A DNA stretch of 43,305 bases, from the NCBI GenBank assembly GCA_902761755.1, contig CACWLP010000015.1, positions 1 to 43,305 on the forward strand, in the 5' to 3' direction. Below the pieces are notes generated by a model. The model was not told the DNA's origin. It was given only the letters and a program-made list of their open reading frames with translations, and searched no databases. The DNA comes from an uncultured Eubacteriales bacterium. GTDB lineage: Bacteria > Bacillota > Clostridia > Christensenellales > Aristaeellaceae. The position numbers and the translations under genes are program-made. This document shows, piece by piece, positions 18,307 through 31,713 of this stretch; positions within the stretch are counted from its first letter, which is position 1, and every line of letters begins with the position of its first letter.

Positions 18307-18335
18307 TTGTATTTCCTGAAATCCCATGCTATAAT
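18307..18335 (+). promoter_or_regulatory. Promoter of the rimP-nusA-infB operon
   Basis: TTGTAT (18307-18312) and TATAAT (18330-18335) are 17 bases apart. Transcription should begin near 18342, giving a leader of about 190 bases before rimP. Confidence 0.75.
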
Positions 18336-18372
18336 ATCATTTGGACCGGCAATCGGCCGATCCGACGAAAAC

Positions 18373-18513
18373 AAGCGTGATCAGGGCGACCTGAGAGAAA
18401 GAAGGGTTTAACGAAGAGTGGGAGCTGCATGGGGGAAAGCGCAGGCGGAATGTGTGTTCCGCGACCCGCGTTTTCCGTACCGTGCGTGCTGATCCCGCTC
18501 TTTGTCTGTTTTT
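18373..18513 (+). ncRNA. Structured rimP leader with two mutually exclusive stems
   Basis: The leader contains a nested hairpin: an outer 9-bp stem at 18434-18442/18468-18476 and an inner perfect 6-bp stem at 18445-18450/18457-18462. Around it, two long-range pairings compete for the same 3' strand. AGCGTGATCAG (18374-18384) pairs with CTGATCCCGCT (18489-18499) at 10 of 11 positions. AAGAGTGGG (18414-18422) pairs with CCCGCTCTT (18494-18502), including one G-U. The second form is followed at once by TGTCTGTTTTT, so it looks like a terminator and the first like its anti-terminator. I cannot match it to a named riboswitch class. It may sense the level of an operon product, but that is inference. 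Confidence 0.55.
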
Positions 18514-18531
18514 CGGGAAAGGAAAGAGCAA

Positions 18532-19026
18532 ATGCCCGCCAGAAAAAAGGACGACATGCAGTGGATCGAAGGCATCTGCGAAAAGACGGCGGAGGCCCTG
18601 GGATACGAGCTTTGCGCCGCCGCCATGGAGAAGGAGCCCACGGGCCGGTACCTGCGGATCTACATTGATACGGAGGGCGGCGTAACCCTGGACGACTGCG
18701 AAAAATACCACCGGGCGGTGCAGGGGAAGCTGGAGGAATTCGATTACGATTTCCTGGAGGTGTGCTCCCCGGGCATCGACCGGGTGATCAGGACGCAGCG
18801 GGACGCCGAAAAATGCCGGGGGCTCCTGGTGGAGGCGAAGCTGTACCGCCCCGTGGACGGGAAAAAGGCCGTGCAGGGGCTGCTGGAAGGGATGGACGCG
18901 GAAAAAGTCACCCTGACGGCGGACGGGGAAACCGTGGAGCTGCCCCGCAAGGCGGTGGCTCAGGTGCGTCTGGTGCCGGATCTGAGCGCCCTGGACGAAG
19001 AAGACAGCGAAGAGACCGACGGCTGA
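18532..19026 (+). CDS. rimP: Ribosome maturation factor RimP
   Basis: RimP assists late assembly of the 30S subunit. The 164-residue product has the N-terminal alpha/beta domain (LGYELCAAAMEKEPTGRYLRIYID, then VTLDDCEKYHRAV) and the SH3-like C-terminal domain. The hallmark LEVCSPGIDRVIRT corresponds to the usual EVSSPGLDRPL. I chose the ATG at 18532, preceded by GGGAAAGGAAAG; an ATG ten codons earlier has no binding site and falls in the leader's U-rich stretch. It is the first gene of the translation operon and is separated from nusA by 38 bases. Confidence 0.93.
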   Translation: MPARKKDDMQWIEGICEKTAEALGYELCAAAMEKEPTGRYLRIYIDTEGGVTLDDCEKYHRAVQGKLEEFDYDFLEVCSPGIDRVIRTQRDAEKCRGLLVEAKLYRPVDGKKAVQGLLEGMDAEKVTLTADGETVELPRKAVAQVRLVPDLSALDEEDSEETDG

Positions 19027-19064
19027 AAAGCCTTGAAAAAAGTGGAAGGCAGGAGAAAAAGAAA

Positions 19065-20231
19065 ATGGCACGCAAATCAGAAATGTACGAAGCGATCGAA
19101 GCCCTGGCCAAGGCCAAGGACATCAGCGTGGAGCAGATCCTGGAGGCGATGGAGGACGGCCTGAAGGCGGCGTACAAGCGGTACATGAAAAAGAACGCCA
19201 ACGCCCCCATGAACCTTTCCGTGGTCATTTCCCGGGAAAAGGACGCCCAGATCTTCGCCCGGAAAAAGGTCGTGGAAGAGGTGGAGGACGACAGCCAGCA
19301 GATCTCCCTGGCCGAGGCCCGGGAAATCAGCCCTAATTATGAACTGGACGACATCGTGGAAATCGACGTGACGCCCAAGGATTTCGGCCGCGTGGCCGCC
19401 CAGACCGCCAAGCAGGTGATGCTGCAGAAGCTGCGGGAAGCGGAGCGGGGCAAGATCTACGACGAATTTATCGAGAAGGAAAACGAGATCCTCACCGGCA
19501 TCGTGGAGCGGGTGGATACCAAGGCCGTGTACGTGGAGCTGGGCCGCACCGAGGGCATCCTGGAAAGCGACCAGTTCATGCCCGGGGAGGAATACCGCCC
19601 CGGCGACCATATCAAGGTGTACGTGCTGCAGGTGTACCGCGACCGGCACGATCTGAACCGGGCGCCCCAGGTGGCCGTCAGCCGCACCCACGTGGGGCTG
19701 GTGAAGCGCCTGTTTGAAATGGAAGTGCCGGAGATCGCCACGGGCGTGGTGCAGATCAAATCCATCACCCGGGAAGCCGGCAGCCGCACCAAGATGGCCG
19801 TGGCTTCCGTGGACGCCATGATCGACCCGGTGGGCGCCTGCGTGGGGCCCCGGGGCAGCCGTGTGGACAAGGTGGTGTCCGAGCTGAAGAATGAGAAGAT
19901 CGACATCATCAAATGGAGCGCGGACCCGGCGGAATTCGTGGCCAACGCCCTGAACCCCGCCCACGTGGTCAGCGTGTTCGTATCCGACGCGGAGAAGATC
20001 TGCCGCGTGATCGTGCCGGATAACCAGCTCAGCCTGGCCATCGGCAAGGAAGGGCAGAACGCCCGCCTGGCCGCCAAGCTGACGGGATGGAAAATCGATA
20101 TCAAGTCCCAGACCCAGTACAATGAGCTGATGGGCCAGACCGTGGCGGAACTGCAGATGGGGGACGGCCAGGTGATCGCCGACGAATACGACGACGGCAG
20201 CTTCTCCCAGATCCCCGATGATATCGAATAA
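19065..20231 (+). CDS. nusA: Transcription termination/antitermination factor NusA
   Basis: NusA binds RNA polymerase and nascent RNA, modulating pausing, termination and rRNA antitermination. The 388-residue protein shows the N-terminal RNA polymerase-binding domain (about 1-125), the S1 domain (ILTGIVERVDTKAVYVELG onward) and two KH domains: GACVGPRGSRVDKVV in KH1 and LAIGKEGQNARLAAKLTGW in KH2. Like other Firmicute NusA proteins it lacks the C-terminal acidic repeats of E. coli. The ATG at 19065 follows AGGAGA. It is the second gene of the operon, ahead of ylxR. Confidence 0.96.
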   Translation: MARKSEMYEAIEALAKAKDISVEQILEAMEDGLKAAYKRYMKKNANAPMNLSVVISREKDAQIFARKKVVEEVEDDSQQISLAEAREISPNYELDDIVEIDVTPKDFGRVAAQTAKQVMLQKLREAERGKIYDEFIEKENEILTGIVERVDTKAVYVELGRTEGILESDQFMPGEEYRPGDHIKVYVLQVYRDRHDLNRAPQVAVSRTHVGLVKRLFEMEVPEIATGVVQIKSITREAGSRTKMAVASVDAMIDPVGACVGPRGSRVDKVVSELKNEKIDIIKWSADPAEFVANALNPAHVVSVFVSDAEKICRVIVPDNQLSLAIGKEGQNARLAAKLTGWKIDIKSQTQYNELMGQTVAELQMGDGQVIADEYDDGSFSQIPDDIE

Positions 20232-31546: not shown

Positions 31547-31601
31547 AAAAAACCGCCTCCTCACAGATGAATTGCTCGATCCGCAGAGGCAGTTTCCTAA
31601 A

Positions 31602-31698
31602 GCAGCGGGATGCGCAGCAGACACCGCGCCGGAAAACCGGCTTCGTCCCATGGCAACTCCCCGTCCATGAGCACTTGACGCGTCTGCCGCTACTCTGC
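31602..31698 (-). promoter_or_regulatory. Tetrahydrofolate (THF) riboswitch
   Basis: Read on the minus strand, the RNA matches the THF aptamer in order: an AGAGUAG start, CGCGUCAAGUG, a GGGGAGUUGCC part, GACGAAGC, a GGCGCGGUG element and the closing UGCGCAUCCCGCUGC. Stem P2 (GCAGAC with GUCUGC) closes the core, and GCAG with CUGC forms P1. Downstream, GCCUCUGC (31590-31583) can pair either with the GCAGAG at the aptamer's 5' end or, through GCCUC, with the AGGAGGC ribosome binding site. This suggests translational control. The known class switches expression off when THF binds. Confidence 0.85.
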
Positions 31699-31713
31699 GT
31701 ACGAATCGCCTGT

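Follow-up and report, generated by a model that had tools for sequence, protein, structure and literature searches.

Introduction

The rimP-leader is an attenuator that lies in front of the rimP-nusA-infB genes. In the sections of Naville and Gautheret (2010; PMC2965389) that deal with it, it is a hairpin with a G-rich 5' arm and a C-rich 3' arm, followed by a T-stretch in most species. These sections describe no larger conserved element and name NusA as the best candidate effector, and they report that in several Gammaproteobacteria there is a second terminator, which is preceded by an antiterminator. According to the relevant passage of a review, NusA of Bacillus subtilis is autoregulated by NusA-stimulated termination in the 5' leader (PMC12288461). 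For Streptococcus agalactiae, the passage concerned describes a short RNA from the rimP leader that ends at a terminator and proposes feedback by NusA (PMC4448216). Searches of open-licence papers listed no title or abstract with a long rimP leader or a tag of the kind described below, the passages cited above mention neither, and one further paper (PMC8060035) held nothing on the rimP leader outside its reference list.

Here we describe the rimP leader in a stretch of 43,305 nucleotides (the window) from an uncultured Eubacteriales bacterium of the family Aristaeellaceae. The original prediction for this DNA was an attenuator for the rimP-nusA-infB operon with two competing stems and an aptamer-like middle. 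The attenuator layout is borne out insofar as a terminator-like stem and a U tract precede the full gene row, while the two-stem switch and the aptamer are not. Autoregulation by NusA, put forward there as a natural idea, is supported and has already been published for the rimP leader of other bacteria, in the passages cited above (PMC2965389, PMC4448216, PMC12288461).

Results

The rimP leader folds into a single rod

All features of the leader lie on the forward strand. The gene row, read from Pfam matches, is rimP, nusA, ylxR, an L7Ae-like gene, infB and rbfA, and the leader thus occupies the place of a rimP-leader attenuator, before rimP-nusA-infB. The first gene of the row that would be controlled, rimP (18532-19026), matches Pfam RimP_N and DUF150_C, and its likely ribosome-binding site is AAAGGAAAG at 18518-18526. 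A promoter, TTGTAT-17-TATAAT, can be read from the sequence at 18307-18335 and would place the RNA start near 18342. Among 29 leaders of the genus, the top-scoring promoter, selected as the best of a 120-nt stretch, has a -10 element with at least five of six matches and a TTGTAT or TTGTAA -35 element in 26; a generic promoter scan with stricter rules listed none at the window leader. Between the RNA start and the tag described below, many leaders of the genus have a variable hairpin that is absent from some other genera.

The leader (18340-18513) folded far better than expected by chance (z -5.16), and no dinucleotide shuffle out of 200 matched it. Its best fold is a single rod from 18411 to 18505 at -55.5 kcal/mol, in which P1 (18411-18423 with 18493-18505) is followed by P2 (18424-18432 with 18480-18489), P3 (18434-18442 with 18468-18476) and P4 (18445-18451 with 18456-18462). 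The letters and coordinates of the original prediction were correct, with CTGATCCCGCTCTT at 18489-18502. The second of its two stems, in which AAGAGTGGG (18414-18422) pairs with 18494-18502 over nine positions including one G-U, is included in the rod and gains a tenth pair, A18423-U18493. The fold and the family and phylum comparisons delimit this terminator stem to a 5' arm, AAGAGUGGGA, at 18414-18423 and a 3' arm, UCCCGCUCUU, at 18493-18502. The hairpin proposed to be nested in the middle was likewise recovered, its 9-bp stem as P3 and its second stem as P4, which has 7 bp and not 6.

P1 is followed by an interrupted U tract, UGUCUGUUUUU, which we expect to be the stop site (18503-18513, reading TGTCTGTTTTT). 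A generic terminator scan does not list this stop or its stem because the loop limit of the scan is 8 nt. The segment GCUCUUU at 18497-18503, in the 3' arm, could alternatively pair over 7 bp, as seen by eye, with AAAGAGC at 18524-18530 in the rimP ribosome-binding site, a possible tie to translation while P1 is open. GCUCUUU may also resemble boxA.

The terminator stem is conserved across the phylum

The second stem, before the U tract, is the rimP-leader terminator, an attenuator of published type (PMC2965389), and of the two stems originally proposed it is, judged from sequence comparison, the only conserved feature. In a survey of the phylum, RimP was found in 142 of 149 genomes, and 78 rimP upstream regions were taken, one per family, with one family omitted as its contig was too short. 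A strict motif (AGUGG, 3-20 nt, CCRCUYU) preceded rimP in 71 of the 78 families and occurred in none of 78 reversed strings. Nearer relatives in the order and family that lack the tag carried it in 24 of 46 cases, and the spacers of these 71 and 24 hits measured 4-16 nt. Among the seven families without the strict motif, some have altered arms that still pair by eye (L122, L126, L147, L164). The element has the form of the described attenuator, a hairpin with a G-rich 5' arm and a C-rich 3' arm and then a U stretch. An Rfam search of 20 short-form loci returned no rimP family and one sub-threshold match to L20_leader (E 0.75).

Best folds contained P1 in 45 of the 46 leaders folded (44 from the family, together with L199 and L200) and in all 104 loci found through the tag pattern (see below); the one exception, L067, had a misplaced anchor. 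Since P1 hardly varies, its covariation is thin: one comparison found both sides changed in one of ten pairs, and a genus alignment that included P2 found this in none of 15. Across genera, the innermost P1 pair is G-C in 34 leaders, A-U in four, U-A in one and C-G in one, and it is non-standard in five of 45. Across families (L121-L198) the stem letters GAGUGGG/CCCRCUC are near-fixed. This is more than pairing requires and suggests that one arm may be read by sequence; the passages on the rimP-leader in PMC2965389 likewise argue for sequence-reading of a terminator arm.

The terminator encloses a variable, folded insert

What is new in this lineage, as far as the compared sequences tell, is that the terminator arms stand around a stable hairpin with a covarying lower stem and are accompanied by a tag. 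The insert (18424-18489; P2, P3 and P4) forms a loop of 69 nt in the window and of 57-124 nt over 46 leaders. Inserts were more stable than their dinucleotide shuffles, with a mean z of -3.08 and 36 of 46 below -2. In a swap test, uncorrected for kinship, the own P2 arms of 91 unique leaders paired at -10.91 kcal/mol vs -6.81 (sd 0.26) for swapped arms; the 59 leaders not of the genus type, equally uncorrected, gave -10.87 vs -6.80 (sd 0.32). None of 200 swaps was as good as the own arms in either set.

The insert differs between genera in length and sequence, with no core common to all. The middle of the leader had been likened to an aptamer, a likeness that does not extend beyond a hairpin that varies from genus to genus; the conserved aptamer core of a riboswitch was not found across genera. 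The original prediction could not match the element to a riboswitch class, and an Rfam search of the region that admitted E values as high as 5 gave no match. By eye, the bulge between P1 and P2 holds no constant GA that would indicate a K-turn for the L7Ae-like product. In its typical, though not defining, form the rimP-leader is a compact hairpin that forms no part of a larger conserved element, and the present leader departs from this form; because of its loop of 57-124 nt and its constant tag we file it as a variant of the rimP-leader.

The only Rfam match in the whole window is a THF riboswitch elsewhere, at 31601-31699 on the minus strand (83.1 bits; gathering threshold 36). It lies upstream of a membrane-protein-like frame on the same strand, which presumably resembles a folate transporter (FolT).

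A 17-nucleotide tag adjoins the 5' arm

Directly before the 5' arm stands a near-invariant 17-nt tag, GAAAGAAGGGUUUAACG, at 18397-18413, identified by its conservation and overlooked in the original prediction. The 33-mer that spans the tag and the 5' arm (18397-18429) was the best conserved of 520 tested, with a mean identity of 0.985 over 28 relatives vs a median of 0.765 for all 33-mers, which were drawn from 18340-19900 and cover rimP and part of nusA. All 17 letters matched in 25 of the 29 leaders of the genus and 16 in the remaining four. Between tag and P1 the pattern has 0-4 extra letters, with a wider gap in L086. In the window's own genome (73% complete) the tag is single-copy at up to two mismatches, and at three mismatches tag-like sites were not in excess over the backwards control.

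No conserved pairing partner for the tag was found in comparisons with the insert and the 3' arm. The pairing tests used 78 leaders from 80 of the 106 pattern loci; mean z was -0.04 for tag with insert and 0.19 for 5' arm with insert, and tag with 3' arm averaged -9.32 vs -16.15 for P1. Moreover, leaders whose 3' arm no longer contains CCC still have GGG in the tag (e.g. L062, L063, L069, L072, L086, L199). On these values and on the GGG kept despite loss of CCC, we rejected antiterminator pairings that involve the tag or the insert.

The tag and the long loop occur together

Of 60 genomes of the family, counting the window's own, 59 had a RimP match, and the leaders of all 59 were read. The tag and the long loop are tied to each other: 44 of these leaders have both, five have a short loop and no tag, and ten have neither. 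The arms of P1 are 65-130 nt apart in the 44 tagged leaders, where 13-17 of the 17 tag letters match (L086 was classed by its 103-nt loop); the best upstream match in the five short-loop leaders is 10-12 letters. Over the whole lineage the arm distance is 65-134 nt. Among the relatives, 96 of 100 had a RimP match; leaders were read for 90 of them, and the six with the weakest matches were left out.

The ten family relatives with neither tag nor recognisable P1 are L071, L076, L078-L082, L085, L088 and L089, and in some of them rimP appears, by eye, to start with TTG. In L079 a stretch immediately before rimP resembles the 3' half of a tRNA with its terminal CCA; in the 801 bases searched, ARAGORN detected no complete tRNA. 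The stretch is reminiscent of Escherichia coli, where the metY gene precedes rimP.

In 297 genomes of the order the tag pattern occurred in eight, once in each, and it was absent from the backwards control. A species-level genome collection yielded 106 stretches with the pattern. In 103 of them RimP follows on the same strand, at most 900 nt away, and the other three have 55-111 nt of sequence left; the 3' arm was found 66-134 nt on in 104, the two without it being among the three short ones. The titles name Clostridia, Clostridiales, Eubacteriales, Christensenella or Christensenellaceae, and many are from the ruminant gut. The pattern itself prescribes GAGUGG and the greater part of the tag, and constancy at these letters was left uncounted; the pattern loci also overlap the other genome set and cannot be treated as independent of it, and L249 and L278 come from one isolate.

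One of the eight tagged genomes of the order, G386, belongs by its placement to a different family. Its leader, L199, and that of Christensenella sp. UBA1428 (L257) have both tag and long loop, and L090 of the same family is of the short form. The tag in a genome of another family beside the short-form L090 may reflect transfer, loss or misplacement.

Discussion

With moderate confidence we read this leader as a lineage-specific rimP-leader, a NusA-type autoregulatory attenuator to which a factor site and a delay loop have been added. The RNA would start near 18342, and the tag and the 5' arm would be made first. The 69-nt insert would fold into its rod, and the 3' arm would close P1 just before the interrupted U tract. 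By analogy with the described leaders, part of the polymerases would stop near 18510, and more NusA would mean more stopping. As a second input in this lineage, a factor would recognise the tag in its unpaired, single-stranded state, and the insert, by delaying closure of P1, would give that factor time before the stop-or-go decision; we infer both the reader and the delay. The co-occurrence of tag and long loop suggests that they work together, and one tag site per genome would suit feedback by a product of the operon.

We count in favour of this reading the strict terminator motif, present in 71 of 78 families and in no reversed string, the near-complete recovery of P1 in the folds, the swap test of P2, the tie between tag and long loop in the family, the position of 103 of 106 tag sites before RimP and the published passages on NusA feedback. 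Against it we count the interruption of the U tract, the non-standard innermost P1 pair in five of 45 leaders, the ten family leaders with neither feature, the absence of a kinship correction from the P2 test and the thin covariation of P1 itself.

More tentatively, the leader may be a distinct regulatory RNA in which an old NusA terminator has been turned into a timed checkpoint: the 17-nt tag would be recognised by a dedicated factor, for which the folded insert would serve as a delay before the terminator closes. We hold this to be possible, though rather unlikely. Candidates for the factor may include the KH and S1 domains of NusA, if they recognise the tag sequence-specifically, other products of the operon such as RimP, YlxR, the L7Ae-like protein, RbfA or IF2, or the 30S subunit.

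The tag could also have another purpose. In a plain rimP-leader terminator the insert would be a passive hairpin and the tag would serve, for example, RNA stability or as a ribosome standby site. The insert is free in length and sequence between genera, as this would predict, and the short form without a tag suffices for most of the phylum. However, no classified leader had one of tag and long loop without the other, and the tag adjoins P1 with few letters between them, save in L086, and we regard the plain terminator as unlikely.

It is less probable still that the attenuator is gated by the ribosome, with a 30S subunit binding the tag as a Shine-Dalgarno-like site, perhaps with a start at GUG 18418 within the 5' arm, and keeping P1 open. 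The tag pairs with a generic 16S rRNA tail at -9.64 (78 leaders), about as well as do the 30 nt before RimP (-9.8; 48 leaders), and in 12 of 29 leaders of the genus the frame from GUG ends 4-6 nt short of the 3' arm. However, the window's own genome is incomplete and yielded no 16S gene against which to check the tail, the gap from tag to GUG varies, and the constancy of UUUAACG is left without a reason. The leader frames differ, with four codons in L011 and an end beyond the 3' arm in others, and codon changes in the GUG frame (123 synonymous and 453 not, in 11 leaders) resemble those in the other frames (142/462 and 94/433). A leader peptide from GUG 18418 was rejected on these differing frames and stops and flat codon statistics, although 12 of the 29 stops cluster before the 3' arm; the conserved short reading frame of a leader-peptide attenuator was not found.

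Very improbably, the rod is chiefly a site of RNA processing, for example by RNase III, and not an attenuator; the leaders do contain a long stable rod, but P1 descends from a phylum-wide short terminator with a U-rich stretch after it, and the rods are variable and bulged.

Finally, the original prediction had assigned the role of antiterminator to AGCGTGATCAG (18374-18384), which does pair with 18489-18499 at 10 of 11 positions. In the window this pairing is better than chance (P 0.008, from 1000 shuffles of the 56 upstream nt of this leader). In relatives, however, the same test fell below 0.05 in just two of 30 leaders, the window counted, and the other of these, L016, has a different pairing; L003, the closest relative by leader DNA (84% over 165 nt), gave P = 0.95. 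When arms were swapped among 91 unique leaders from relatives, the 50-nt segment ahead of the tag paired worse with its own 3' arm than with those of others (-8.25 vs -8.63, sd 0.20), and an earlier swap test with 71 leaders gave -8.39 vs -8.55. The region upstream of the tag cannot be aligned across the genus, and the first stem, if forced, costs 8.4 kcal/mol relative to the rod. It has no room in L077, a tagged leader, because the predicted start is only 12 nt before the tag; most other tagged leaders have enough room, yet lack an equivalent. Covariation of both stems had been offered as the check, and the outcome is divided: the second is conserved with thin covariation of its own, and the first has no counterpart in relatives, where a termination/antitermination switch would keep or covary its alternative stem. 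A two-state switch in which 18374-18384 takes the 3' arm and blocks termination is, on the shuffles, swap tests and forced fold together, scarcely credible.

If the leader is the extended NusA-type attenuator that we favour, the tag and the long loop on the same terminator offer a handle, as a binder of the tag would make the sensing step testable, and the leader would be an example of a bare terminator acquiring a second input. Its relation to the known systems can be put as follows, within the passages of the sources that bear on each. The B. subtilis NusA leader (PMC12288461) is the leader of the same operon, with an intrinsic terminator and the same feedback logic; unlike here, the passage mentions neither tag nor long loop. 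The leader of the S. agalactiae rimP operon (PMC4448216) gives a terminator-ended short RNA with proposed NusA feedback, both of which we would predict here, but that RNA ends 31 nt past its start and the stop in the present leader is expected at about 170 nt. With the rimP-leader of Firmicutes and Gammaproteobacteria (PMC2965389) our leader shares the site before rimP-nusA-infB, the G- and C-rich arms, the U stretch and the suspicion of NusA, and, as in the common form described there, no antiterminator is visible. Unlike that rimP-leader, it has in addition a folded insert of 69 nt and a constant tag of 17 nt.
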